This document shows, one piece after another, positions 1,480 through 46,700 of a stretch of 64,000 nucleotides of DNA. Numbering within the stretch: the first letter of the stretch is position 1; every line of letters begins with the position of its first letter. This stretch comes from a virus: positions 62,001 to 126,000 of the IMG/VR virus record IMGVR_UViG_3300017917_001123, one strand, 5' to 3'. A program made the position numbers and the translations under genes. The notes under the pieces are model-generated. The model was not told where the DNA came from. It did not search any database and saw nothing but the letters and a program-made list of their open reading frames with translations.

Positions 1480-4149
1480 ATGAGTTACATCGATGCCATC
1501 TGGGATCGTGACAACGACGTTGTACGTGTCGCTGAACGTGATCCTAAAAAGGGTAGAATCTTCGTAGATTATCCAGCCCGTTATCAATTTTATTACCCCG
1601 ACAATAAAGGAAAGTACAAATCCATTTACGGGGAAAGTCTATCAAAAGTCACTTGTAAAACATTCAAAGACTTTATCAAAGAACAAAAAATCCACTCAAG
1701 TCACAAGCTATACGAAAGCGACATTAACGCTGTGTTTCGTGTGCTTGAAGAAAACTATCTAGGAAAAGATGCTCCGAAACTAAATGTAGCATTTTTCGAT
1801 ATTGAGGTGGACTTCGATCCAGAACGCGGTTACGCATCTCCAGACGATGCGTTCATGCCAATTACTGCGATTGCTGTTCACCTACAATGGTTAGATACAC
1901 TGGTCTGTCTTGCTATTCCTCCAAAGACACTTACAATGGAGCAGGCACAAGAGTTAGTTAAAGATTTTCCTAACACACATCTCTTTGAAAGCGAAGCAGA
2001 GATGCTCGACACTTTCTTAAAGCTAATCGAAGACGCAGATATTCTTAGCGGTTGGAACTCGGAAGGTTTCGATATTCCGTACACCGTTAACCGGGTTACT
2101 AAAGCCTTAAGCAAAGAAGACACACGCAGATTCTGTTTGTTTAATCAATTTCCAAAGAAACGTGAGTACGAAAAATATGGGAAACAAGCTGTTACCTATG
2201 ATCTTGTTGGTCGTGTTCATTTGGACAGTCTCGAGCTGTACCGCAAATACACATACGAAGAACGACACACATATCGACTGGATGCTATTGGAGAGATGGA
2301 AGTAGGCGAAACTAAAACAGTCTACGAAGGCACACTTGACCAACTATACAACAATGACTTTAAAAAGTTTATTGAATATAACAGACAAGACTGTGCGCTA
2401 CTCGATAAACTAGATAAGAAACTAAAATTCATTGACCTAGCAAACGCTATTGCTCATGAAAACACAGTTCTGCTACAAACTACAATGGGTGCTGTAGCAG
2501 TTACTGAACAGGCTATTATCAACGAGGCACATCACCGTGGTATGATTGTTCCAAGTCGTACACGCAAAGACGAGCTTGGCGATACACAGGCCGCAGGTGC
2601 TTATGTTGCTTATCCAAAGAAAGGTCTTCATGACTGGATTGGATCTGTTGATATTAACTCTCTTTATCCGTCTGCGATTCGTGCCTTAAACATGGGACCA
2701 GAGACTATTGTTGGGCAGTTACGTCAAGATTACACCCAAGCAGAAATCGAAGCAAAAATGGCAAAAGGTAATTCTTTTGCGGCGGCTTGGGAAGGCAAAT
2801 TCGGTTCAAACGAATATGAGTTTGTTATGTCGCAAGACAAAGCCAACGACATTGTTGTCGAATGGGAAACTGGCGAAGAAGACATCTTGTCCGGTGCTCA
2901 GATCTATGACTTAATCTTTAATAGTAATCAACCATGGATGCTTTCAGCCAATGGTACAATCTTTACTTACGAAACAGAAGGTATTATTCCAGGCTTGCTC
3001 AAGCGTTGGTATGCTGAACGTAAGGACATGCAGAAAAAACTCAAAGAAGCAATTGACGCAGGTAATAAGATTGAAGAGGAATACTGGGACAAACGTCAGT
3101 TAGTTAAGAAGATTAACTTGAACAGTTTGTACGGTGCTATTCTTAACGCTGGTTGTAGATTCTTCGATAAAAGAATTGGGCAGTCTACTACGCTAGTAGG
3201 TCGTCAAATCTCCAAACACATGGCAAGTAAAATCAACGAAATTATTACAGGCGAATATGATTATCGTGGACGCTCTGTAATTTATGGAGATACTGACTCG
3301 TGTTACTTCTCTGCTTACAGTACACTAAAGAACGATATTGACAAAGGACGTTTGCCTTGGGATAAAGACGTTGCCATCCAACTGTACAACCAGATTGCTG
3401 ATGAAGTAAACGGCACATTCCCACAGTTTATGTTGGATGCGTTCCACTGTCCAAAGAGTCGCGGTGAAGTTATCAAAGCAGGTCGCGAAATTGTTGCGTC
3501 TAAAGGTTTGTTTATTACTAAGAAACGTTATGCTGTTCTTTATTACGATAAAGACGGAAAACGCTACGACACAGATGATAAGCCAGGCAAGATCAAGGCT
3601 ATGGGTCTAGACCTTAAGCGTTCAGATACTCCAGAATTTATGCAGAAGTTCTTGGAAGAAATCTTAACACGAGTCCTAAACGGCGCAGAAGAGCAAGAAG
3701 TGTTAGATCGTATTAGCGAATTCCGCACAGAGTTTAAAGCTCGCCCAGGCTGGGAAAAGGGTTCGCCTAAACGTGCTAACAACATTACAGAGTATGCGGC
3801 TAAGGAAAAGAAACAGGGCAAGGCTAATATGCCAGGTCACGTTCGAGCAAGCCTTAATTGGAATACTCTAAAACAACTTAACGGAGACAAATACTCAATG
3901 GGTATTGTTGACGGTATGAAAGTAATTGTTTGTAAGTTAAAAGATAATCCACTAGGTTATACCTCAGTCGCTTATCCGGTAGACGAACTAAGATTGCCTA
4001 AATGGTTCCAGGAATTACCTTTTGATCATGGCGAGATGGAAGCTACAATCATTAATAATAAACTGGAAAACCTAATCGGTGTGTTGGAATGGGACTTAGA
4101 CTCTACAACACAAAATAATACCTTTGGTAATTTGTTCACATTTGAATAA
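1480..4149 (+). CDS. 43: Family B DNA polymerase gp43
   Basis: The 889-residue replicative polymerase carries a complete 3'-5' exonuclease: FFDIEVDFD (Exo I, Asp107 and Glu109), GWNSEGFDIPY (Exo II) and YNRQDCALLDKL (Exo III). The polymerase motifs are DINSLYPSAIR (motif A, Asp391), KKINLNSLYGA (motif B) and YGDTDS (motif C, Asp604 and Asp606), so it should be active and proofreading. The protein ends in QNNTFGNLFTFE (878-889), matching the hydrophobic C-terminal tail by which T4-type gp43 binds the sliding clamp. The start follows AGGAG with ideal spacing and two operator-like hairpins. The clamp gene follows directly. Confidence 0.97.
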   Translation: MSYIDAIWDRDNDVVRVAERDPKKGRIFVDYPARYQFYYPDNKGKYKSIYGESLSKVTCKTFKDFIKEQKIHSSHKLYESDINAVFRVLEENYLGKDAPKLNVAFFDIEVDFDPERGYASPDDAFMPITAIAVHLQWLDTLVCLAIPPKTLTMEQAQELVKDFPNTHLFESEAEMLDTFLKLIEDADILSGWNSEGFDIPYTVNRVTKALSKEDTRRFCLFNQFPKKREYEKYGKQAVTYDLVGRVHLDSLELYRKYTYEERHTYRLDAIGEMEVGETKTVYEGTLDQLYNNDFKKFIEYNRQDCALLDKLDKKLKFIDLANAIAHENTVLLQTTMGAVAVTEQAIINEAHHRGMIVPSRTRKDELGDTQAAGAYVAYPKKGLHDWIGSVDINSLYPSAIRALNMGPETIVGQLRQDYTQAEIEAKMAKGNSFAAAWEGKFGSNEYEFVMSQDKANDIVVEWETGEEDILSGAQIYDLIFNSNQPWMLSANGTIFTYETEGIIPGLLKRWYAERKDMQKKLKEAIDAGNKIEEEYWDKRQLVKKINLNSLYGAILNAGCRFFDKRIGQSTTLVGRQISKHMASKINEIITGEYDYRGRSVIYGDTDSCYFSAYSTLKNDIDKGRLPWDKDVAIQLYNQIADEVNGTFPQFMLDAFHCPKSRGEVIKAGREIVASKGLFITKKRYAVLYYDKDGKRYDTDDKPGKIKAMGLDLKRSDTPEFMQKFLEEILTRVLNGAEEQEVLDRISEFRTEFKARPGWEKGSPKRANNITEYAAKEKKQGKANMPGHVRASLNWNTLKQLNGDKYSMGIVDGMKVIVCKLKDNPLGYTSVAYPVDELRLPKWFQELPFDHGEMEATIINNKLENLIGVLEWDLDSTTQNNTFGNLFTFE

Positions 4150-4207: not shown

Positions 4208-4942
4208 ATGAAAGACATCCTTCAAGATATCGTAAGTCATACACATAATCTAGGCTTCCTTAACATTGTTAAGATCACAGGCGCAGAAGACAAAACAGTT
4301 ATTGACTCAATGGCAGACGACCGCTCTGTAATTCTACAAGCAGAAACTGCTAATCCGTATCCAGACATGATTGGCGTGTTTGGTATGCCACAACTTAACA
4401 AACTAAAGATTCATCTAGATTGTCCCGAATATAAAGAGGACGCAAAGATCGATGTTGTTAAAGCAGATCGAAACGGTGTTACTCTTCCGGTAGGCCTTCA
4501 CTTTGAAAATAAGAAAGGCGACTTCAAGAACGACTATCGCTTTATGAACACAGAAATTATCAACGAAAAGTTGAAGACTGTTAAGTTCAAAGGTGTCAAT
4601 TGGGATGTTGAGATTGTTCCTAGCGTTGCCGCAGTTCAGCGTTTTAACTTCCAAGCAAGTGCTAACTCCGAACATACTACATTTATTGCCAAGACCGACG
4701 GCGATAAGCTAAAGTTCTATTTTGGTGACGCAAGTACACACGCAGGTGAGTTTGTTTTTGCTGAAGGCATTACAGGTAAGATTACAACTAACCTAGCATG
4801 GCCTGTTTCACAAGTTCTAGCAATTCTAAAGATTGCTGATGTAAACAATACTAAGATGAGCTTTAGTAACGCAGGTGCTCTTCAAATTGAGTTAGACAGT
4901 GGTCTAGCAAAATACAAGTACATTGTTCCAGCACAAGCATGA
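4208..4942 (+). CDS. 45: Sliding clamp gp45
   Basis: A 244-residue processivity clamp that tethers gp43 to DNA and, in T4, also activates late transcription through gp55 and gp33. The sequence shows the T4/marine-phage clamp pattern of alternating strands (SVILQAET, KLKIHLDCPEY, AAVQRFNFQASANSEHTTF, a C-terminal KYKYIVPAQA). I chose the ATG at 4208 (MKDILQDIVS) with AGGAG upstream; an in-frame ATG at 4124 lies inside the gp43 gene and upstream of the promoter, so it cannot be used on the main transcript. The stop overlaps the next start (ATGA). Confidence 0.92.
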   Translation: MKDILQDIVSHTHNLGFLNIVKITGAEDKTVIDSMADDRSVILQAETANPYPDMIGVFGMPQLNKLKIHLDCPEYKEDAKIDVVKADRNGVTLPVGLHFENKKGDFKNDYRFMNTEIINEKLKTVKFKGVNWDVEIVPSVAAVQRFNFQASANSEHTTFIAKTDGDKLKFYFGDASTHAGEFVFAEGITGKITTNLAWPVSQVLAILKIADVNNTKMSFSNAGALQIELDSGLAKYKYIVPAQA

Positions 4943-5319
4943 TAAAAGGCATTACACAATCAGGCAGATATACTGTGGTTAGTGGCGGTACTGCCTCTAA
5001 CCCGTATATTAGCCCAGGAGCAACTGGAGCAGGAATGGTTCGTTGGAATCCCAACATGAGCCAATTAGAAGTAAACGACGGCAATAATTGGCAGTCAATT
5101 GCAATGAGCTTTGCTAGCGTTGGATTAACTTCAGAAGCAGAGAGCATTTTAGATTGGGCAAGAAATAAAATGCGTGAAGAATTTGAAATGAAGGCTCTTG
5201 CCGAACAACATCCTGCTGTCAAGATTGCTCTAGAAAACCTAAATAAAGCACAAGAACAACTTAAGGCAACAGTAATATTAAGCAAGGATTATCAATCGAA
5301 TGAAGAAACCACCACTTAA
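4939..5319 (+). CDS. Hypothetical protein with virion-like N-terminal motif and helical C-terminus
   Basis: A 126-residue protein whose ATG overlaps the gp45 stop. Residues about 20-55 (PYISPGATGAGMVRWNPN, then LEVNDGNNWQSI) resemble the short motif found in phage tail-fibre and head-fibre proteins that reads xxGMxRxNxxxxxxEVxDGxxW. The second half (about 65-115) is a charged helix, probably a coiled coil. The end overlaps the DpdA-like gene by 20 bases. Its place between clamp and DNA-modification genes is unusual for a structural motif. Function unknown; it could be an adaptor or a small virion protein. Confidence 0.7.
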   Translation: MIKGITQSGRYTVVSGGTASNPYISPGATGAGMVRWNPNMSQLEVNDGNNWQSIAMSFASVGLTSEAESILDWARNKMREEFEMKALAEQHPAVKIALENLNKAQEQLKATVILSKDYQSNEETTT

Positions 5320-6919
5320 CTTAACACCTCTACAGAAAGACTATGCTGTCTATTTGCCGGCTATTAGTTCTTTCTACGAGAACTATATCTCTAAGCAAAG
5401 ACTTGGGGAGTTTATTTCTACTGATCGTATCCCTAAAGGATTTGATCGCGGTATCGAAGGCATGAACTTCTTAAACGAAGAACAAGGATATTTTACATAT
5501 CGTTATGCTTTGTATTCCGCAGGTCACGCACAACTGGATCTGGAAAAAGCAATAGATCAAGAGTCTATGATTCAACAACGACAAAGAAATAGTACAGTTA
5601 TTGTCGGCGACTCCGGTGGATACCAGATTGGTAAAGGTGTTCTTAAGTTTGATTGGCTAAACTTTGAAGGTGCCGAAGCTAATAAGACTCGTCAAAAGAT
5701 TCTCGAGTGGTTGGAAATGACTGCTGATTGGTCAATGATGCTAGACGTTCCAACTTGGGCCTGTGACCACATTCATAGTCCAAAGACTGGATTAAAAACA
5801 TTTGAAGACTGTCTAGACAAGACACGTTTCAATAACGATTACTTCCTTAAGAATCGTTTAGGCCAAACAAAGTGGCTTAACGTTCTACAGGGTAGTGACT
5901 GGGATACTGCTGAAAAGTGGTATCAAGGCGTAAAAGAATTCAGCGACCCGAATGGTCCATACAAAGGCCGCGAAGCCGAAGGGTGGGCGTTTGGTGGCGC
6001 TAACATGTGTAAAATGGATATTACTCTAAAGCGATTAATGACGCTTAGAGAAGATGGTTTGCTGAAAGGCAAAAACTGGATCCACTTCCTGGGTACAGCA
6101 CAGTTAGATTGGTCATGCTATCTAACACTTATTCAACGTCAAATTAGGAAGCACATTAATGAAGAAATTACCATCTCTTTTGATTGCGCCTCACCGTTTA
6201 TCGCAACAGCGCACGGACTCGTCTACACAAATGCCCAACACACCAACAAACGTTGGTCGGTTATTATGGACAAAGCACCAGATAACAAAGCACTTGCAGG
6301 AGCAGATATCCCGTTCCCATTCGAGTCAGAGTTCGGTCGCAGACTAACAATGGGCGATATTGCCTATTACGATCTAGGTGTTAGAAAGTCTGATGCTGAA
6401 TTAAATGGTGCTAAGTTTGATCACTTGAATCCAGATCACTATCATGTTGTTCCTAAAATTAACAAGCTAGGTAAGATTCCCAATAAAACAAGTTGGGATA
6501 GTTTTAGCTATGCTTTAATGATGGGTCATAACGTTGAATGCCATATTGTTGCTGTACAACGTGCCCAACAATTAATGGATATCGAATGTGCTAGATTTAA
6601 ACCAGACTGGCGTCATTGGGGTATCGAAGGTAAGAAAGAAAAAGAATTTAGCGACTGGGTTCCACGCAGAATTCTATACTTTGCTACATTTGTTGAAGAG
6701 TTATTCAATACCAAAACAAAAGCAGAAGCATTTGACTTAATTGAATCTGCTTTACCACTTCTTCGTAGTTTAGAAGGTGCTCGACTACAAGGTGGTCCTG
6801 CTCAAAATACATTTGGTAGTTTGTTTGAGGTCGAAGAAGTTCGTCAAGAAGAAATTGATTTCGCAAGTCCAGATGATGACGAACTAAGAGCACTCGAAGA
6901 AGAACTAAAAGATCAGTAA
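5300..6919 (+). CDS. dpdA: DpdA-like DNA guanine transglycosylase (TGT fold) with clamp-binding-like motif
   Basis: A 539-residue TGT-superfamily protein. DSGGYQ (Asp104) matches the general-acid motif of tRNA-guanine transglycosylases, MMLDVPTW the substrate pocket region, WAFGGANM the second pocket loop and SFDCASPF (Asp295) the nucleophile motif FDCxxP. The CxCxxC zinc site of tRNA enzymes is absent. Phage DpdA enzymes replace guanine in DNA with 7-deazaguanines and so block restriction; FolE, QueD-like and QueE genes downstream support this. A C-terminal extension holds QNTFGSLFEVE (502-512), nearly identical to the gp43 C-terminal clamp-binding tail, followed by an acidic end. A tRNA-modifying role is less likely. 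Its TAA overlaps the oxygenase ATG. Confidence 0.85.
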   Translation: MKKPPLNLTPLQKDYAVYLPAISSFYENYISKQRLGEFISTDRIPKGFDRGIEGMNFLNEEQGYFTYRYALYSAGHAQLDLEKAIDQESMIQQRQRNSTVIVGDSGGYQIGKGVLKFDWLNFEGAEANKTRQKILEWLEMTADWSMMLDVPTWACDHIHSPKTGLKTFEDCLDKTRFNNDYFLKNRLGQTKWLNVLQGSDWDTAEKWYQGVKEFSDPNGPYKGREAEGWAFGGANMCKMDITLKRLMTLREDGLLKGKNWIHFLGTAQLDWSCYLTLIQRQIRKHINEEITISFDCASPFIATAHGLVYTNAQHTNKRWSVIMDKAPDNKALAGADIPFPFESEFGRRLTMGDIAYYDLGVRKSDAELNGAKFDHLNPDHYHVVPKINKLGKIPNKTSWDSFSYALMMGHNVECHIVAVQRAQQLMDIECARFKPDWRHWGIEGKKEKEFSDWVPRRILYFATFVEELFNTKTKAEAFDLIESALPLLRSLEGARLQGGPAQNTFGSLFEVEEVRQEEIDFASPDDDELRALEEELKDQ

Positions 6920-10615: not shown

Positions 10616-11311
10616 ATGAGTGAAAAAAATTTAGCGCAAGCAATTAGAGAAAACATGAGACGCAACGGAAAGCGTTTCTGGGCTGGCGACAATATCAGCG
10701 AATACGTAGACGAAAATGTTCTCCCCGAACTGGTAGACGAAGCAACAGAAGCGTTTGAAAAAGTGTTGGATGCGTTGTTAATTGATCGCGAAACAGATCC
10801 TAATAGTAAGGGCACAGCACGTAGACTGGCCAAAATGTACTTTAACGAAATAATGGCAGGAAGATATGCCCCAGCACCAGACGCAACAAGTTTCCCTAAC
10901 GATTCGGAGGACCGCTACGAAGGTATGTTGGTTGTTCGCAGTGAGCTTCGCAGTATGTGTAGCCATCATCACCAACCCGTTACTGGTGTTGCCTATATTG
11001 GTATTATTGCGGCTCAACACCTCATTGGCCTCTCTAAGTACACAAGGATTGCCCAATGGTGCGCCCGACGTGGTACTCTCCAGGAGGAACTTGCTAATGA
11101 TATTGCTCGCGAGATCGCCAAAGCCACAGGAGCAAAAGACCTAGGAGTTTATATTCAAGCCACGCATGGTTGCTGTGAAAATCGTGGCATTATGGCACAT
11201 AGTTCTTTAACACAAACAACTGTATTACGTGGTGCGTTTAAAGATGATCCAGGCACAAAGAAGGAATTCTTTGACAACATTAAACTCCAACAAGAGTTTG
11301 CTCCAAGATAA
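10616..11311 (+). CDS. folE: GTP cyclohydrolase I
   Basis: A 231-residue FolE. The zinc ligands are visible: Cys115 and His118 in MCSHHHQPVTG (usual form CEHHxxP) and Cys186 in HGCCENRG (usual form HxCxxxRG). The RIAQWCARRGTLQEELANDI helix follows the family. It converts GTP to dihydroneopterin triphosphate, the entry step for both folate and 7-deazaguanine (QueD, QueE) synthesis. In this phage, with QueE and a DpdA-like enzyme nearby, DNA base modification is the likelier purpose. It has its own sigma70 promoter, so it heads a new transcription unit inside the accessory operon. Confidence 0.95.
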   Translation: MSEKNLAQAIRENMRRNGKRFWAGDNISEYVDENVLPELVDEATEAFEKVLDALLIDRETDPNSKGTARRLAKMYFNEIMAGRYAPAPDATSFPNDSEDRYEGMLVVRSELRSMCSHHHQPVTGVAYIGIIAAQHLIGLSKYTRIAQWCARRGTLQEELANDIAREIAKATGAKDLGVYIQATHGCCENRGIMAHSSLTQTTVLRGAFKDDPGTKKEFFDNIKLQQEFAPR

Positions 11312-15223: not shown

Positions 15224-15384
15224 TGCAAGTAAGAGCTTCAGCAGATGTAGGTAAGTGCGGTTGCGGTCGTAGCCCAACTGGTAAATGTATCGGATGGCAT
15301 GGCCTAACCGAAGACGAGTTTAAGAAAAAACTCGAGGAATATAAACTTACTGAACAAAAAGCTACAGGAACTCCAAGTGAGTAA
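15223..15384 (+). CDS. CDGSH-like iron-sulfur mini-protein
   Basis: A 53-residue gene with AAAGGAG upstream and its ATG overlapping the previous stop. CGCGRSPTGKCIGWH supplies Cys12, Cys14, Cys22 and His26, i.e. CxCxxS...CxGxH, the three-Cys-one-His ligand set of CDGSH [2Fe-2S] proteins, with one residue less between Ser and the third Cys and Ile-Gly-Trp replacing Asp-Gly-Ser. The remaining residues form a charged helix. CDGSH proteins carry a redox-active, labile cluster. It overlaps the GTG start of radical-SAM QueE by eight bases, so it may serve cluster supply or electron transfer to QueE (inference). Confidence 0.7.
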   Translation: MQVRASADVGKCGCGRSPTGKCIGWHGLTEDEFKKKLEEYKLTEQKATGTPSE

Positions 15385-16234
15385 AATCAAAGTCGCAGAG
15401 CTGTTTTACAGCATACAAGGAGAAGGACGCTTTATGGGCGTTCCTTCTGTCTTCTTACGTACATTTGGTTGTAATTTTACATGTGCCGGATTTGGCATGC
15501 CAAGAGGAGAACGAAGTGTTGAAGCAGAAAATATTGACGCATCTAAGTACACCGAGTACAAATCGCTTCCTTTGGTATCTACAGGTTGTGATAGTTACGC
15601 TTCTTGGGATCCTCGCTTTAAGCATCTATCTCCCCTTCTGGATACTACTGCGATTGCCGATGCTATTGTGGATACGTTACCTTACAAGGAATGGCGGGAC
15701 GAACATCTCGTAATTACAGGTGGCGAGCCTTTGCTAGGTTGGCAACGTGCTTATCCAGACTTGCTTAATCATCCTAAGATGACTAGCTTAAAAGAGCTAA
15801 CTTTTGAAACAAACGGTACAATGCGTTTGACAAAAGATTTTAGACATTTCTTGCTAGACTGGACACTAAGCCCAGTTCATGGTCGAAGAGGTTACAATGC
15901 CCTTACATTTAGTGTAAGCGCAAAACTTCCTTGCTCAGGCGAACCGTGGGAAGATGCTATTAAGCCAGAAGTTGTTTGTGACTACGAACAGGTTGGTTAC
16001 ACATACCTTAAGTTTGTTATTGCTTCAGAACAAGACGCACTAGATGCCGATCGTGCCGTAGAAGAATATCGCAAGGCAGGATTCAACGGTCCTATCTATC
16101 TAATGCCAGTCGGCGGCGTTGAAAGCGTTTATGCTCTTAACAATCGTCGTGTAGCAGATCTCGCTATGAAGAAGGGCTATAGATATTCCGATAGATTACA
16201 AGTTCCGCTCTTTAAAAACGAGTGGGGAACTTAA
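15377..16234 (+). CDS. queE: 7-carboxy-7-deazaguanine synthase, radical SAM
   Basis: A 285-residue QueE. ELFYSIQGEGRFMGVPSVFLR is the family start, and LVITGGEPLLG the SAM-binding GGEP (115-118). Cluster Cys32 and Cys36 lie in GCNFTCAG; the third candidate, Cys71, lies in STGCDSYASWD, so about 34 residues separate the second and third ligands where standard QueE has two. QueE turns 6-carboxytetrahydropterin into 7-carboxy-7-deazaguanine. GTG start at 15377 behind GGA, overlapping the CDGSH-like gene. With FolE and a DpdA-like protein it forms a phage 7-deazaguanine route. Confidence 0.92.
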   Translation: MSKIKVAELFYSIQGEGRFMGVPSVFLRTFGCNFTCAGFGMPRGERSVEAENIDASKYTEYKSLPLVSTGCDSYASWDPRFKHLSPLLDTTAIADAIVDTLPYKEWRDEHLVITGGEPLLGWQRAYPDLLNHPKMTSLKELTFETNGTMRLTKDFRHFLLDWTLSPVHGRRGYNALTFSVSAKLPCSGEPWEDAIKPEVVCDYEQVGYTYLKFVIASEQDALDADRAVEEYRKAGFNGPIYLMPVGGVESVYALNNRRVADLAMKKGYRYSDRLQVPLFKNEWGT

Positions 16235-34778: not shown

Positions 34779-37700
34779 TTAAATTCCTTCTAGCGGGTTC
34801 TCGTCTTCGTCAGTTAAAACAGCGCCTGTTTCAAGTATAATGATTGGGTCGCCTGGGTAATAATCTTCGCTTGGTAAAACTCCAGGAGTTTCTTCCAAGA
34901 ATGAAAAGACCGTAGTATTTTCAAATATCTGTCCAGTTCTCTTTGAGACAAATACTTCTACTCCGGGCTGTACATTAAATCCAAAATGTAGTACTGGATA
35001 TTCGTTATTATTAATTATCACAGAACTCATTGTGAATTGGGCGGATACGGTACTTGTGCTTGGTGTTCCGAACGAATCGTTTTGTCCAGAATCGTAAGCA
35101 ATTTCTGTATCGGTTGTAACAACAGCGTTTGAAGTCGGTTTTAACAACGGAACTCCGCCGTATAAAACTTCAAACATGTCAGTTAAAGGAGGAGCATCTA
35201 ACAACTTAGCAATTCCTGTAGTAGGATCTACCCAAGTTTTTGTTACTGTTCCAGAAACTGTAATTGATGTTAGAGTATAGACATTTGTAGTAACTGTTGA
35301 AGTAAATCTTTCAATCTCTGTTGTATCTGTTGCTGGCAGATTTTGTCCACGGCCTTGATCAATTACAAGTGTTCCAGTTGGAAGCCCATCTAATACACCT
35401 GTACCAAGTGTGCCTCTTCTTAATTGGCTTAATTCATTATTAGCAACTCTAAAGAACTCAATGCGTTCGCCGGCAATATAAACAACTCCCGGAAGATTCT
35501 TTTCAGGATTTGGCGGAGTTAATACTCCAGCATTATCTACAAAAATCTTAGAGTCGGTTGCAATTAACGGTTGAGTTAACTTTGTTGAATATGCCGAGCT
35601 TAAACGCTTGTAGCTTGTTCTTCCTAAAATGTCTGTAAACATTCTATAAGAAATTGCTCCTTTGTATGCGTTGTCTGATAGGCTCATAATTACAACCTTA
35701 TCAGTAGAACTATTGTAAAAATCATCTCTAACTTTTACAGTAACGAGGTCTTCATCTACTGAGTAGTCTAAGTCATTAATTAATGGCTTACCGTTATATT
35801 CAACCCAAACATAATTCGTATTAACAATTGGACGGCTCATGACGTATTTGCCTGCTCTGTTTCCAGCAAATCTTTCTTTGCGAATCTTACTACCATCGTG
35901 GTTAGTAAATGTAACAACTCGCATAGTATCAGCGCCGGCTTGAGCTCGGGGAACGTTAACAAGAACCAATTGTCCTGCTTCTATTTTATATTGGTGTCCA
36001 GAAAGAACCGCAATAGCAATAGCATCTCCAGTAGAAACTTTCTCTGCCGGGAACAGTACTCTAGTTGGAGGAGGAGTTAGTTGGAAGTCAACTCCTGGAA
36101 CCAATTTTTCACCGTTACGATATACTTCGGTGTTTACTAAAGTTGCCTGACCGGCAATTAACGGATCGTTGGGGTCTACATCAAATTCAACCTGACCCGG
36201 TTCAACAACATAGTAGCTTACCTGTGGCGGAAGTAATCTGCGGCCATTCCACTCAACAATAACTTGGCTATGATGCGGTTGGATAACTCCAGGGGGTTGA
36301 GATAGAGTAAATGAGTCTTGTTGAATATTAACGTTTTGGAATATTTGCTCATGAACCTGACTAAACGCTTTAGGATCTTGATTAAATGCCCAAACTTGAA
36401 TTTCTTTTGTACCAATGGTGTTATGTAAAACTCTAATAGCACCCTTAGGTGTTTTGTTTTTTGCTCGACCAGGTGCGGCTTCAACTACAAAGTCTGTCCA
36501 CTCAGTACCGTTAACTACAACATACGCATCCTTAATGTTCTTAAGGGCAACGGCAGAGACAACAGTAGTCGAAGTAGAACCCGGCTGACTCTTAACAATT
36601 TGGTAGTCAACTAATCCTTGACCCCCAAGAGTCATAGCAGAAACACTTAACCAAGTTGCTCCAGGAACAGCCTGTGTTAGTGTAATTGTGTTAGCAATTG
36701 GGTTAACTGTGTAATCAACTGCGTATCTTAGAGGCTTAACATCTGTAAGAACAAATACCGATGCTGTACTAGCAACTTTAATGCCTAATGGATATGTTGG
36801 GCTACCGCCTAGTTCGAATCGACGATTAACAATTAATGGACTTGCTTCTGATTTTTGCTCAAATACAGAGATACCAACAGACTCTTGAATTTGTCCAGGA
36901 AGCATTTCTTCAGGAGCATAACTGCTTGTTGGGTCGATGAACTTATATCCGTCAATAACAATATCGCTCGGAGCAATACCAAGAATTACGGAGTCTAAAT
37001 CTCCTCCAGATATAACAGCATCTAGAGCATCAGGATCCGCAGGAAGAACAGTTCCATCACTAGATTGATCACGGAATGTGATAATGTTAGACGATACTGT
37101 ACTAAAATATGTTAATGGAACATATACTGTCGACGTCGAACCTTGACCAACAATAGTCGGAATTACTGCGGTGCTTGTACTTTGATCAATACGAACATTT
37201 ACACCAGTTCCTGTGTTTATATAAACATTAATAAACGTTCCTGTGCTAACATTAAAAGGTGTTGTAACAGGAACATTACCGTCTAACAAGAATAAAACTT
37301 GATTATCTAAAGAGTTCTTTCTTGAAGTCCAATATCCCAATTGTCCCTGAGCTTGTGCTAACTGGCTTAACAAATATTGATAGCCAGGATTTGGCACAAA
37401 CTGATTTGGGCCCACTGGAATAAATGGTGATGTAACTGAAAGATCTTGATTAAGTTGATTAATTCTAGACGTCCAGAACCCAACTTCAAAATCTGCGTTT
37501 GCGGCTTGAGCTTGTAAGTCAACTAGTTGACTAGCGTAACCTAGTTGTGGATCTTTAACTACACCATAGTTTGTTTCGCTAGCATAACTGTCCCACGCTC
37601 CTTCCCACCATTTTAAAGTATCCCAAGCACTAGAATAGCTGAAAGGTAGAGTATCGACTTTAACTCCGCCATAGCTTAAACCTGTCATTAACTGGTCAGG

Positions 37701-40700
37701 ATCTTTGCCAGGCATTCCTGGTTCTGGGGCATAGTAGTTTTCAATTCTATCAATAGCGTTGAATATTTCTACACTCTTCTTATATTCTAATGTTAAAGTA
37801 ATATTCTTTACAGGAACAAAAGAAAGGACCAATCTAGCATACTTCTTGCTATATGTCAATCCGTTAGTATTAGTAAAGTCTTGCTCAAAATATTCGATTG
37901 TAAATTTATCGTTTAGAACCAAAGAACCAGCTTGAGTTAACTTAATTCCATTTCTATCAGGCTGAGGTACCCATGTTAATAAGAACTCATAAGTAGAGCC
38001 ATCGCCTGTAAATTGATCAACAACATTAACATTCTGAACTTCTTTATTGTAAGAAATTCTATCAAACTTTAGAGTCAAGTTGTTTGCTCTAACTTTTCTG
38101 TTGCCTAATCGAGCCGATGCTCTTGCTTGTTTTCCTCCTAATCCTAGGCCGCCTTCTAATACAATAGTCGGTGTTACGGTGTATCCTGTTCCAGGATTTG
38201 TTACAGCTATTTCGTAAACTTTGCCTAAACTAATATATGCTTCAGCAGTTGCCCCAGTTCCAAAATCTCCAGGCGCTGGAATGATTTTTACAACAGGTGG
38301 CACAATGTAATCTGACCCTTGATCAACCACTACAATGCTATCAATAAAATTAGTATAGTTGTCAAACCAAGCACGATAAGGATACTGTAATACCTGAGTG
38401 CTTGTTGATGATAAAGAAATAAACTTATTGTTAACTGAATCATAGTACGGTGGTAAGTCAAAGTCAGACACAAACGTATTTGTATCGTCAACTGCTCCAT
38501 ACTTAACGGTAAAGTTTCTTATCTTAGTGTGATAAGGTTTAACTTCGTTGATCCAGTCCTCGTAATAAGAACTGTCTTGTAGTTTATATGTAGGACGCTG
38601 ATCTAAAAGACCAGCATTGTTTGTTACGTTAATAAACGAAGTTTTAAATGCCCACTCTAAAGATTGTTGTTCTTGTAAAGCATACTTGACGGCTTTGAAG
38701 AAGAACTTATTCCAATAAGGTTTTAACACACCAACAAATAAATCATCTTTGATCGCACGTAAGATGTAAACTAGCTCTTGGTTAATGCTTTGGTCAAACA
38801 ATGTTTGGTCAAATGCCGCAACTTCGTCAAACGCATAGTCTGTTAACGTATCATTCCAAATCTTGTCAACAATTTGGATGGTTCCTTGTTCTTCGTAGAC
38901 TACATCCCAGTTCTTATCCCAAGTACCGACTGTGCCTGTTTCTGTCTTGCGAACAACCATAAAGGTGCCGTTGCCAGAATTTTTAACTTTAACATACTCA
39001 CCTGCTGATACATCTAAAGAGGTTAGCTCATACGGTTCAGTAACAGTATCGGCAAAGTCCTGTAAAGGATTATAAGAATCTGCTTGCCAATCTACATATT
39101 TCCATAATAGACGTGTATCGTATTTTTGTGTTTCAATACGAATCCACTCTTTAACTTCTTGATCCCAAGCAAACTTTGTCCAAAAGCCGTTTGCCGCTTG
39201 GTCTGCTTGAACAATTACGGTGTATGGTCGCACAACTAGTTTAGGAACTGAAGTAAATCCGCGGCCTGCGCTTTCGACATAAGCACCTGTAATTTGACCA
39301 ATGTCGTTGACGATTGTCTTAATAACTGCGTCAAAACCAGTACCTTGAATTTCGACTGTAGGCGGTCTTTGTGAGTTGTAACCGTTTCCTGATTTAGTTA
39401 CTACAACTTTATCAATTTGACCATTTTTAGTAATTGTACAAGCTAGCTCTGCTTGTTGTAGGCCTCTTGTAATGATAGTCGATAAAACGTAGTTGTCTTC
39501 AACTATTACATCATATTCGTTAAGCAACTCGTCAGGTATTTGATCAAACGCATTTAAGTTATCAAAATCACATAACTTAACTACACGCTCCTTTAAAAGA
39601 ACAGAGTTTGTCCAAGTAATAAGATTTCGTAATGCCTCTAGTCTGTTAACAAACATACTTTGACGAGGTCTAATTGAAATGCCGTAACGCTGATTAGCTG
39701 ATAAATCTGTATCAGGAACTGTATTTCCTATAGCGTCAAATCCAGATAAACTATCAATTAACTTACGCTCAAGTAGTACAGGAGGTACGCTGAACTCGTC
39801 GTTTTCTTGTAACAACAGCCATTCAGTATGGCGCGGTGCCGATTCAGCAACGGTATCAATGTTTAGATGTAGGTTAACATCGGATGACTGAATAGTTTCT
39901 TTAATGTTAACTAAAGAAATACTATCTTTGTTTAAAACGTTGATTGCTTTAACATTCTGTCCTTTAGGATCAGCAATTAAACCAGCAACACCCAATGCGC
40001 TCAAACGGCGGCCGACTGCTTCAGCAGGAATGTTTACTTTGTTCTTAACCCAGTAGTAATAAACGTTTGTGAATTGCTGAGTGATTGAATTGTAGACTTG
40101 TTTGATACTTAAAACAGAATTGTCTGGATATCTTGGTTGGCCACTAATACCTTTAATCAAACCTTCGTTAGTATCAGCAATAGCCGACCATTCGCTTGGT
40201 AGATATTCAGAGCGGACCCATTCATATACATTAATAGAGCTACCAGGGAATGTAGTGCCCCAGTTATTCTTGCGATAATCTAAGTCGCCTTGTTCGTACC
40301 AAATGTACTTAACTGATCCAGTATCCCACCACAACTGACCAACATTATCGTCAATCCAGTTAGTGTTAGAATCAACTGTTACACCAGAATTTCCTAGACT
40401 GTAGACCGCAGGGTCAAACATAGTTTTATATGTTAGCTCTTGGTCGGCAGCGCCGGAAATTTTACCTTTCATTGGGTCGATGATTGACAAGTAGTCTTGA
40501 ATTCTATCGTGCTCAACATCAATTGTAAATGCTTTCTTGAGAGCGCCAATATCAATTAAACTATCTTGTTTTCTAATTTCAGCCCAGCTGTTTAGCGAAG
40601 TATCTTGTTTAACAAAGATTAAAATTTCTCCGTTGTTTGGACCATCTTCTGTGGTAGCTGTCGGAGCTCCAACATACAAGTGATCGTTAGACTGAGCTAT

Positions 40701-43700
40701 ACTTAGACCAAAGTTGCTGTTCTCATTAATAAGAATACTGTCTAAATCTTGAGCATAACTGAAGTATGTGTTGTATCTATTAAAGACACTAACCTGGCCT
40801 GCGTTTCTAATTGCGCTAAAGAACTTTGTACTATTTCCGTCGAATGTAGTCTTAAGAGTTCTTTTAACTGACTCTGGATCATTTACAAATTCCTGATCTT
40901 GATTCTGCGAACCAGGATACAGTTTTCTTGAGTAATTGTCAAAAGTAGTTGTCTTTGAATACAAATCTCCTAGACCGGTAATTACTAAATTTTGATTATC
41001 TTCATCAATACAAATGTCTGCTCCAAATACTGTGTTAGCAGTTTTGTTTGGATTTTCAATATTTTGTAGCCAGCTGTAATTTGTACCGTTCCACTTCCAT
41101 ACCGATACGAGGCCTTGACCGTAAATGGTTTGTTTACCCGGAGCCGAAATAAAGATGTAGTTTCCGTCTCGGGTCATAACAACTTTAGCGCCAAGATTGT
41201 CACCATAGCTAATAACGCCATTCAATCCATCGTCGTTCTTGTCAATAGTTTGAAGTAATGTATAAGTGTTTCCGTTTTTAACAAAGACTTCAACTGCGCC
41301 AGTGTTAGTAATATAGCCAGGAGCACCTACTGCCACTTTTGTTAGATCGTTATTTGCGCCAATGCTGTAACCAAACTTGCTACCAGCTACTGCTATAGTA
41401 GAAGGAAGAACAGTTTGTGAAGGGTCAACAAATACTGACTGTGTAGATGTTGAAACGCCAAGTTCAAATTCAACTACCGCATCAAGACCATTTGTACTGC
41501 TAAATTGAATTGTAGGAACAGTAGTGTAACCGTATCCAGGGTTATCAATAGTAACAGAAAGAATTTGACCGTTAACTAGCGTTGGATCATCTTGAAGTTC
41601 TTGAGCCGAGTAAGTAGTTACTGATGAAATACGTGCGGTTGCGTTAACACCGCCTGGCAGATTAGGAGCACTAACTGTTACTACTGTAGAAGTCGAATAT
41701 CTTCTTCCTGGGTCGTTAACTGTAGCACTAAGAACACTACCACCCATGTGATATACGTAAACTTTACCGGCAACACCATCGCCGGGTGCGCCAACTAAAA
41801 ATACTTTGTTGACTGTTCCTGTATTAACAGCAATATCATAACCAAACTGTCCGCCGGAAGTTGGATTAGGACTTGTTAAAACACCAAGAGTTAAATCGTC
41901 TTGCTCTGGTCTATAGATATGAGTAATCTTAACAAGACCTGCGTAGTTAGCAACTGTAGCAAAAGCTCCAGGATTTGCGTAACGTACATTATTAATTAAC
42001 GGGCCTGCTTTAACTTGGCTAGCATTTGGCGCACCCGCAAAAATTAAATCGTGTGCTTTGTCATACTTTAAACTAAAACCAAAGTTGCTCGGAATTGAAG
42101 AGGTATAATAATCAGTATTACCAACATCGTTTAATCTGTATGATAGTAACGGTGCGGCATCTGTGTTTTTTGCTGTGCTTCTTTCATAAACTGTAACAAG
42201 ACCTTTGCCGTAGTTAATATCCTCATATGTAGGAGCACTTACAGCAAATGTACTAGTAGTGGATTCGATCGAAACTCTAAAACCATAAAGCTGACCGGTG
42301 TTGTCTGCTCCGCTAGTTAAAACAGATGGCTGGTAGTTGTTAATCTTTTCATAGACAACAAACTTACCTTCTCCGTTGTCGTCTACCCAAATTTTATCTC
42401 CAAATGAAGTATTTGTTAATCTTTCTAAAGATCTTAAATCGTCAAAGCTAGAGAATCTAACTGATATAAATTTAAAGAGTTGGCCAATAAAAATAGATAA
42501 ACTTGGCGGGGCGTCAAGTCTAATAAATCTCGACACTGAAAAATCTTGATTTGATGTATGTTCAGAAGTACACTTGTAGTAGTCGCCTCTATAGTAAACT
42601 ATATCGCCTACAGCATAGAAAGAGTTTTCAGCCCATGTAACATAAGGGGCTTCATCAAGAGGTGTTGATGAAAGATCTGTAGCAACAACAAATGTTGTTG
42701 GGCTTGGACAACGTAGAACCGCATACACCTTGTTTAGTTCTGTTTTATATCTTGATACTGCGACAAGGTCTCCGGGTTGTAGGCCGTGCGGAGCACTTGT
42801 TAAAAACTGTCCGGTATTTCCCGGAACTAAGATGTTAAAGTCAATTACTCTATAAGATAAACGAGTATAACGCAATACATCCCAATCGCCGTCTTCACGG
42901 AAACCTACCCAGAATGTTGCGCCTTCTTTAATGCCGTCAACATTTCCAATATCAAGCAGACTGTTTCTATTAAAAGCAGTAGCAGTAACATCATCTAATC
43001 TTACATAACCAGCAACTGGCAACTCTGGAACATAGTCTTTAAAACTAATGTCAGTGGTTGGGAATACATTTGCAAAGTCGTAATCTTCTGGTTTAACTAA
43101 AACATCATCAACTGGTTTATAGTATATAAAGTCGTTGTTATTTCTAGCATAGTCTGTAAACTTGATAATTTGAGGATTTTGAACAAACTCACTGTCATCT
43201 AATTTAATTTCAAGCTCTTGATAGCTATTGTAGCCACCGAAGTGACCAATTCTAAATGCCCAGCTTTCGTTAAAAGTTGCTTCGCCTTTTAGTTGGTTAA
43301 CTGTTGCTTTAGCAATCTTATTGATTGCGTTGGCTGTACCTTTTTCACGAATATAACCTTGGTAGAATTTATATTGTGCGATAGGATCGTTAAAGATATT
43401 ATCTAGGTAACTACGAGGGCTGTAACCTGTTAGGTGTTGGGCCATCCTTTGTTGACCAATATCAAAGTTGTCAATGTCTAAACTATAAAAGTCTTCGAAC
43501 TGACCGATCTTGTATTCAAAGTTTGGAATTAGATCAGCAACCGGCTTGTTAGAGATTTGATTCCAATTACTAAAATTAAATTCAGCACTTCCAAAAATTT
43601 CAGACGCTTTTGGAGAATAATATCTTCCATTGTAGCGAACAATCTCTCCAGGGTAGTAATCTTTGTATGCTTGCCAATCGTTGATAGTTGCTTCATCAAA

Positions 43701-46700
43701 CACAAAACCGGGACTAGATAATCCACCATTCCACTCGCTAGTTCTAAAACCAATTAACTTGGCTCTACGCTGACGATATCCTGTTTCAATGTCATAAATG
43801 ATATCGTTAAACATACTAAAGTTATTGAAAACAATAGCGTGTTGCTTTTGTACAATATTGAACTGAGCAAAATATAAACCAACCTTAGGTAAAGTTACTT
43901 CAATTGTAAACTCATCGTCAATACGAGCACAATTGTGCATTTCATGAGGTAGCGCAGAACCGTCAGCAGTTAATAAACTATACTCATAGAACTGATTTGT
44001 AATGTTGTCAACAACACCGTAAATAGGATCTCGTGTTCCGGCAACTGTACTAAATTTTAGCTGTTGGGCAAAAGGGCTTAGAGTAATAATTGAACCGTTA
44101 GTCCAATTTTGTGTAGACCAGAACATAAATTCTCTAGCACTGAATTCCCAGTTTAAAATTTCCTTAAAGTCTTCTTGAAGGAAATCAAATACAAATCCTT
44201 GATTTTCTAGATAGCGTCCGTATCCAAGAATAAAATCAACAACTTCTTGAATCGAATCAAACTTAGTTCCGTATGGAATAATCGTTTCAGTTTCAGAGTA
44301 TTCAACTGCCTTGGCGATTGTTAGTCCGCCAGTAATTGGCAGAGAAGGTAATTTTTGAAATTTATCAGTATCAAATGTGTTTAAAGAAGTATGGCTCTTA
44401 ACTGTTCTGAAGAACTCGTTATTATGGAATACAACCTGTCCTGTTTGATAAAACTTTTCTTCAGACCATGTAACATACGATTCAGACTTGCCACCAACAC
44501 GCAATTCTCTATCTTGTAAACTATGAATTGGAGTAACAACTTTAAAGTAAGGTCTGTACTTATCATACCCTCTTACAGCATAAGATGCGTTATTTTTTTG
44601 AATTAAAATTCCGCTAATGTTAAATGTAAAAATTGGGTTAGATGTTGATAATACGATTTCGTAATCTTCCTGAGGTAGTAAAACACCAGGATTGGTACTT
44701 GTTGGATCAACAGAATCAATAATAACACGCAGTTTGTCTTTGTTAATAAAACCTTCGGCTTTATACATTAGCTGATAGTTAATGTTGATAATAGCTTCCT
44801 TCATTTCTGTTAGGAAGTTTTCTGTTCTTTGAAGTCCTGCTTCGATTAAGAAAACACTATAGCCGGACGCAACTTGTCTTTCTCCGGCTACGACATCTCT
44901 ATATAGAATAACATTATCTAGTTTTAAAAGTTCTTCGTTATCGCCGTAACTGTATTGGCCAGCAACTGATTTTTTAATTCTGCTAGGATCAAACATTAAA
45001 CTAGCGTATGCGCTAGGTTTAGTTAAAGCCATTAAAATTTGAACAGCAAACGGCCAAAGACTTGAACGTCTCCATGCCGCTTCAGCAGGAGCACAATCAC
45101 CGAACTTCCAAGCCTGATCAATCTTAGTCAAGTCAACTTCTTGTGCGATTCCAATTTGAATAGGATCTAACAGATTACCGTATTCGTCAACCGGAAGAAT
45201 ATCAAATAAGTTTGGTCTAGCATATTTGTTGTCAATACCTGCTCTTGTTCCTTGTTTGACCACTCCATCTCTCAAATCAGACCAAAGGATTTTATTTCCA
45301 GCTGTGTATGGTTTAGTTCCATATTCTGATTCCCACCAGCTCGGCTGTTCACTAAATCCAAGCATTTCCCAAGGATGGGTGTGAGGACGATCGGTGTCAT
45401 AGAAATACTTGTAGATTCCTCTCCAGTATCCTGGTAGTGATAGTCCAGTGTTTTTATCTTTAGAACTAGTTCTAAAATTGTAAGTCCACTGTGTATCTTC
45501 TTGTAGGTTGTTTGTTGTATAATCAACTCCGCTGTTTCCTGCCCATTTTAAGAAATCGGAAGAAAGAATATTCATAACTTCAGCATAGCTGAAATCTTTT
45601 GTACGATATGCTCCTGGCAGAATTTCGTTAATGTCAACTAAATCTGTGTTATAAGTTGCCTTAATATTGTTATAGATTCTCTTTTCAAACTCAAGAATAA
45701 TATCATCTCTATAATCATTAAAAGCAACAATGATGCTACCGTCGTGACCTTGAATAACTTTAGTAGGAGTTACATAAGTGTTATCGATATAGATAGATGG
45801 TTCAAACTTTGGGAACAATCCTAACTTTGTCGGTGTAGGAGGAACATAACATCCTTCTGTAGTTCTGTAATCTTTAATTTCAATTCGATCGCCTTCAGCA
45901 AGGTTAATAGAGAAAGTAACACTTGGATCAAAAGGATCAAAGGTGTAATCTTTTCCTAATAACAACTGAGTTCCGTTTAGGTATACCAGAATAGCACGTT
46001 CGCTAAGTTGAGAAGTATTGAATGCTGTAGATAAGCTATAGCTCTTGATTCTTGTATTAGTAACAGTATAAGTTCTTGGTACAAAATCTTTTCCGTAGGT
46101 TAGCATATCGCTATAACCATATGGGAACTTAACATCTTTACCTGCGTTAAGTTCAGTTAGAATAGCATCAACTGCGTCAGCCGGCGATGTTTCTACCGCA
46201 ATGCTTGAAGTCTTGTAGATAAAAGAATTCTTGTAGTAGAAATAATCATAAGCAACTTTTCTAATAGCAGGAACAACATTGTATTCTTTCTGTCCTAAAA
46301 AGAATTGAGCAAAACTTAATGGATGCTGATGACTAATTAGACGAGTTCCGTACTGACAAATATCTCCCGCATCTCTAAAATTATTTGCGCCATTAATTTC
46401 GCCGCTAAAATCTGGCCAACGTTCGCAAATAGTTTTGTAGTGGTCTGACATCTGTGCTAGAGTAACTTGACCAATTGGTCCGTTCTTAGGATTATTAGTA
46501 AGCGCAAGACTTGGCTCGTAGTAGCCTAATTTATTGGCGGCTCTATTTGTGTAAATCTTACATAGCACTCGATCGTGAGGTTTTAAATTGTTGTTAAAGG
46601 CAACAAAGTATTGCTGATCCTGAGTAATAAAATAAAAATCTACATCAGGTGTTTGTTTCTTATCGTTTAACCAAACATCGATTGTTAAGTTTGGTGTCCA

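Follow-up and report, generated by a model that had tools for sequence, protein, structure and literature searches.

The window, the whole stretch of 64,000 nucleotides analysed here from a viral genome of 331,570 bases, carries near its start a family B DNA polymerase of the gp43 type, followed on the same strand by a predicted sliding clamp and by a protein with the fold of tRNA-guanine transglycosylases (TGTs), which we call DpdA-like (Table 1). Close to its C-terminus the DpdA-like protein bears a stretch, QNTFGSLFEVE, that mirrors the polymerase tail, QNNTFGNLFTFE. An earlier note on this DNA, made from the letters alone, had drawn attention to this likeness; its coordinates for the reading frame and the motif are exact, and the polymerase ends as it had described.

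Table 1. Features of the window, with two further genes placed by genome coordinate
Feature	Position	Strand	Basis or remark
gp43, family B DNA polymerase, 889 aa	1480-4149	+	Pfam PF00136/PF03104; phrog_262 E 1.6e-197; RB69 gp43 in PDB E 1e-58
gp43 C-terminal clamp-binding tail, residues 878-889	4111-4146	+	function by analogy with RB69/T4 (PMC3012046)
gp45-type sliding clamp (predicted fold), 244 aa	4208-4942	+	phrog_12062, "unknown function"; Foldseek
DpdA-like (TGT-fold) base-exchange enzyme, 539 aa	5300-6919	+	ORF; AlphaFold mean pLDDT 88.3; Foldseek
D104 of D-S-G-G-[YF]-Q signature, predicted TGT catalytic Asp	5609-5611	+	invariant in 72 relatives
D295 of I-S-[FY]-D, predicted TGT nucleophile Asp	6182-6184	+	invariant in 72 relatives
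Disordered tail holding the motif, DpdA-like residues 496-524	6785-6871	+	AlphaFold pLDDT < 50
Putative clamp-binding (PIP-box-like) motif QNTFGSLFEVE, DpdA-like residues 502-512	6803-6835	+	predicted from sequence
Motif core Q502-x-x-F505-x-x-L508-F509	6803-6826	+	within DpdA-like tail
FolE, GTP cyclohydrolase I (first step to preQ0)	10616-11311	+	PF01227 E 8e-39
QueE-like radical SAM protein (preQ0 pathway)	15377-16234	+	match to NCBIfam QueE models (E 1e-11), sub-threshold and confined to the N-terminal part
QueD	genome 26724-27245		E 6e-27
Weak QueC-like ORF	genome 242254-242541		E 9e-4, below cut-off

The 244-aa protein gave no sequence-level match in the PDB; its one-chain model matched PCNA structures in Foldseek (E 1.7e-10, prob 1.00, TMt 0.6-0.69), and on this modelled fold it is a PCNA-fold sliding clamp. 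A homologue in Pseudomonas phage PA5oct (L082:6912-7658) is annotated "structural protein, ESI-MS/MS", which means either that the clamp is present in virions or that it was carried over. The arrangement of these genes is widely shared: in every one of the 154 related loci with both genes, dpdA follows gp45 on the same strand at a median distance of 345 bp, dpdA falls within the gp43-gp45 gene block in nearly all loci, and the order polymerase, clamp, small ORF, dpdA and, further on, queE is common to the window, PA5oct and Pseudomonas phage Paride. The small ORF (4939-5319 in the window) has an "NDGNNWQ" stretch and fills the typical gap of about 345 bp; in some relatives that do without it (L054-L058), dpdA begins right after the gp45 stop. 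Elsewhere in the window, the minus strand holds a single ORF of 4660 aa (34779-48761).

When the AlphaFold model of the DpdA-like protein, built with 72 sequences, was compared with the PDB by Foldseek, all 50 of the top 50 matches were tRNA-guanine transglycosylases (E 5e-7 to 6e-5, prob 1.00, TMt about 0.4-0.5), and D104 and D295 are residues that we take, by analogy with TGT, to be the catalytic and the nucleophile aspartate, respectively. No match was found among Pfam, PHROGs, NCBIfam and PADLOC models or by sequence search of the PDB. The identity proposed in the earlier note thus stands on fold and gene context, whereas no sequence family recognises the protein; because no family model matches it and its own profile (A2) stayed below threshold against Vibrio phage nt-1 DpdA2, we label it DpdA-like and do not assign it to a described subfamily. 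The modelled fold, the catalytic residues and the preQ0-pathway genes together support a TGT/DpdA-type enzyme, one matched by no HMM. The base that it would insert is likely to be preQ0 or a derivative, because FolE, a QueE-like protein, QueD and a weak QueC-like ORF are encoded and QueF was not found in the genome. Directly after dpdA lies a 2OG-Fe(II) oxygenase (PF13640; 6919-7497), as it does in a few relatives (L001, L002, L107 and L112), which might further process the modified base.

The motif of the DpdA-like protein falls in register with the PIP box as Q-x-x-F-x-x-L-F followed by E, an acidic flank. The PIP box is defined as Qxxhxxaa, with a phage variant h-x-x-[LMF]-F, and the RB69 gp43 tail has been seen bound to gp45 (PDB 1B8H; PMC3012046). 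Our motif departs from the strict consensus at two places, with F where "h" is called for and L instead of the first aromatic residue, and the gp43 tail of the same phage departs identically. We scored all ORFs of the window with a position-specific matrix built from 20 distinct gp43 tail variants in relatives: gp43 itself scored 37.0 and the DpdA-like protein 19.2, the third-best place reached 7.3, and the best of 400,000 random 12-mers reached 15.0. Among the other ORFs of about 160 related loci, only 3 of 844,821 12-residue segments reached 9, one of them equalling the DpdA score. The shorter pattern NTFxxLF occurs five times in the whole genome, namely in gp43, in the DpdA-like protein and in three short stop-to-stop frames (17-75 codons) that are not gene-like. 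The resemblance of the DpdA-like tail motif to the gp43 tail is therefore far above chance.

In the model, the motif is predicted to be exposed in a flexible segment outside the TGT fold, because residues 496-524 have pLDDT below 50; directly after it come an acidic tail (residues 513-539) and within this a weak predicted helix (527-538). The earlier note had supposed a probably disordered acidic tail, with which this agrees, and had named burial of these residues in the TGT core as evidence against its proposal; AlphaFold places them outside the core. The same low confidence (motif pLDDT < 50; pTM 0.57; 33 alignment rows) was obtained in a one-chain model of an artificial gp45-spacer-DpdA read-through, for which the stops were read as glycine, and no docking of the motif on the clamp was predicted with confidence. 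Such a model could be built because gp45, the intergenic stretch and dpdA share one frame, which is not to say that read-through takes place.

Searching with peptide patterns from two distant homologues, P0003 and P0004, gave no matches; an alignment query retrieved relatives. The approximately 160 loci were among the matches listed (the best 80 per search, from at least 568 IMG/VR relatives), together with annotated phages, and the cultured relatives comprise PA5oct and Paride (44.5% identity) as well as Vibrio phage 2.275.O and Sinorhizobium phage Phosso (about 30%). In the last 48 residues of DpdA from 62 representatives (<90% identity), an [LMIFHV]F pair was present in 97%, as compared with 50% of shuffled and 26% of reversed tails, and the full spacing h-x-x-[LMIFHV]F in 81%, as compared with 14% and 10%; at the ends of gp43, the same patterns were found in 100% and 98%, respectively. 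F509 is the least variable column of the disordered tail, being F in 67 of 72 aligned rows (entropy 0.53 bits). The motif stands at the exact C-terminus in L091, L092 and 2.275.O and elsewhere usually some 30-40 residues inside, and a position that may be internal or terminal is what one would expect of a portable linear motif.

Conservation is not uniform. Absence of the motif from close homologues, which the earlier note had named as counting against its idea, is not what we found: the motif is kept in most and degenerate in a minority. L015, L035 and L052 (about 82-84% identical) have degenerate DpdA motifs (ANKGFLEFED, ANKHFLEFEE and GNKGLFIEEE) beside a canonical gp43 tail, and most relatives with a degenerate motif keep the hydrophobic pair. 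Those of L147 (ANNELFDWG), L152 (GNKDLFDWG) and L157 (ANKGLFDWG) are similar to the ending of the 2.275.O polymerase. The family B polymerase of Phosso has a canonical tail, ending TTFNDLFTF, but the Phosso DpdA, with the ending ELKIVEGLF, matches only loosely at best. Phosso (L083, 7998-9647) and L085 (10001-11617) have in common a DpdA C-terminus of the form [IV]xxG[LI]F, to which L085 adds a final S; judged by sequence, this is possibly a different clamp-binding ending.

The tail of DpdA varies with the tail of the polymerase encoded by the same phage, as the earlier note had suggested checking. We compared the gp43 tail of each representative with its own DpdA tail and with permuted ones, ignoring relatedness. 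Own pairs scored higher than permuted pairs among 62 representatives (mean 25.0 vs 22.2, p = 5e-5), among 19 (21.6 vs 16.4, p = 1e-4) and among 9 with less than 60% identity (21.4 vs 15.6, p = 0.006), although these p-values overstate independence because few independent events underlie them, about two of which are clear; the background, from reversed tails and other DpdA segments, was about 6-10. Where the polymerase ends in FFEF, the DpdA of the same phage has FF: in L091, gp43 ends SEALQAFFEF and DpdA ends EEVLNEFFEF, and in L092 the two end SETMQQFFEF and EEVMNEFFEF. In 2.275.O, the polymerase ends NNTDLFDW and DpdA ends NNNDLFGW, and in PA5oct and Paride, gp43 ends HFDSLFGW and DpdA carries SFNSLFDV. 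In the DpdA tree, L093, with LF in DpdA and gp43 alike, branches as the sister of the FF clade (L090, L091 and L128; support 100/99), implying one concerted change on one branch.

Because the motif is far above chance, conserved and co-varying with the polymerase tail, we consider it very likely that it is a clamp-binding element. One can envision the following sequence of events, which as a whole we regard as probable, if with less assurance than the motif itself. The TGT barrel with its flexible acidic C-terminal tail would be a phage DNA-guanine transglycosylase of the DpdA-like kind, and the tail motif Q-N-T-F-G-S-L-F-E would dock in the hydrophobic pocket of the gp45-type clamp, the same one that receives the gp43 tail. 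Because there is one such pocket per clamp subunit, DpdA could ride the ring beside or behind the polymerase, where it would replace guanine by preQ0 (or a derivative) in freshly synthesised phage DNA. In T4, gp43, gp55 and gp33 can exchange their clamp-binding tails, and such an epitope remains functional when placed internally (PMC2988020). DNA is favoured as the substrate of this guanine exchange because it is hard to see what a tRNA-acting TGT would gain from a clamp motif. Binding to the clamp, action on DNA and action at or soon after replication would each be parts of this scheme, and replication-coupled guanine exchange is the best explanation that we can infer.

An alternative reading concerns the timing. 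The motif may bind the clamp while the exchange is post-replicative, gp45 left on finished DNA or shared with late transcription acting as a general tracking platform that raises the local concentration of the enzyme. T4 offers material for such an account: its gp45 serves late transcription, too, as a DNA-tracking factor to which gp55 and gp33 attach by similar tails (PMC2988020), and the share of T4 alpha-glucosylation is set mostly by expression and not by clamp affinity, though alpha-glucosyltransferase binds gp45 (PMC13216743). However, the place of dpdA inside the gp43-gp45 block favours co-expression with the replicase, even if timing is not fixed thereby, and we consider post-replicative exchange rather unlikely.

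One could also suppose that the tail copies that of gp43 in order to bind some other partner, or to compete for the clamp and so regulate polymerase exchange, the base exchange itself being independent of the tail. A motif nearly the same as the polymerase's would indeed compete for one pocket, but a PCNA-fold clamp is encoded close by, the established ligand of such tails is gp45 (PMC3012046), and the data suggest no other partner, so that this account seems to us very improbable. Least credible is that the likeness arose by chance or that the tail is a functionless low-complexity remnant; the motif is short and is degenerate in some relatives, yet the scores and the conservation lie far above the random and shuffled controls, and the motif has changed in concert with the gp43 tail.

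Replication-coupled exchange would have a precedent in the alpha-glucosyltransferase of T4, which binds gp45 (Sommer et al. 2004; a pull-down in PMC13216743 confirms this): there, too, a DNA-base-modifying enzyme of a phage binds the phage clamp, and modification has been proposed to proceed alongside replication, although that enzyme is unrelated and adds glucose to hmC instead of exchanging guanine. With the RB69/T4 gp43 tail (PMC3012046) our motif shares the hydrophobic-acidic h-x-x-[LMF]-F beside a PCNA-fold clamp, but here it occurs in a TGT-fold enzyme and in most relatives is internal, some 30-40 residues before the end. DpdA is the enzyme that places preQ0 in phage DNA, and the DpdA of Enterobacteria phage 9g and DpdA2 of Vibrio phage nt-1 (PMC6884629) resemble the present protein in TGT fold and in accompanying preQ0-pathway genes. 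By eye, nt-1 DpdA2 also has the DSGG signature and an ISYD motif, but it is too distant for HMM recognition (profile A2 fell below threshold). We found no clamp-like tail in nt-1 DpdA2, though nt-1 gp43 ends LESFFG, and because this experimentally supported enzyme is without such a tail, tethering looks like a trait of the present clade. PA5oct, whose 44.5%-identical homologue adjoins its polymerase and clamp, has been credited with deazaguanine synthesis and incorporation (Iyer et al. 2021, PMC7824862), in an account that, in the parts available to us, does not mention a clamp-binding tail.

The earlier note knew of no clamp-tethered DpdA, and our literature search, in which subscription journals were thinly covered, likewise yielded no description of a DpdA or TGT bound to a clamp. 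Within that literature, the principle of a phage DNA-modifying enzyme on a clamp is already known through the T4 enzyme, and a clamp-tethered DpdA would be new. In eukaryotes, a PIP box tethers the DNA-modifying enzyme DNMT1 to PCNA, where it acts on new DNA; enzyme class and organism differ, and we draw an analogy only. If our reading is true, clamp tethering would offer a simple answer to the question of how a DpdA finds its DNA substrate and tells it from other DNA: the enzyme would modify the DNA held by the phage's own clamp, favouring phage over host DNA; the motif, moreover, supports DNA and not tRNA as the substrate of a TGT-fold family named by no library, and suggests a sequence handle for finding more clamp clients in large phages. 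A broader picture, to which we give about an even chance, is that a clade of large-phage DpdAs has come to depend on the clamp as its clients, evolving together with the replicase tail, that guanine exchange is built into replication, and that the clamp also recruits nuclease-like proteins of the L151 and L142 types through like tails.

The first of these types is a 194-aa protein encoded near dpdA (L151:11557-12141), with homologues at L047:4946-5530, L037:7324-7908, L075:9639-10223, L015:8197-8778 and L046:6543-7133. It has a possible nuclease-like E-V-K stretch, gave no Pfam match over the cut-off, and has a C-terminus like the gp43 tail (STFQNLFAYDN, STFKDIFAYGN and STFSQLIEYDN among its endings), so that it is a possible further clamp client. 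A generic five-residue pattern run over the ORF ends of the window was too loose to name further clients, and the RNase H homologues had no clamp-tail motif at either end. The second type, encoded immediately after dpdA (L142:12227-12808), weakly resembles T5orf172/GIY-YIG proteins (E 0.04) and carries QINEFNSLFDVE near its end; with a matrix score of 19.8, it is the only other ORF in the approximately 160 loci to score as high as DpdA.
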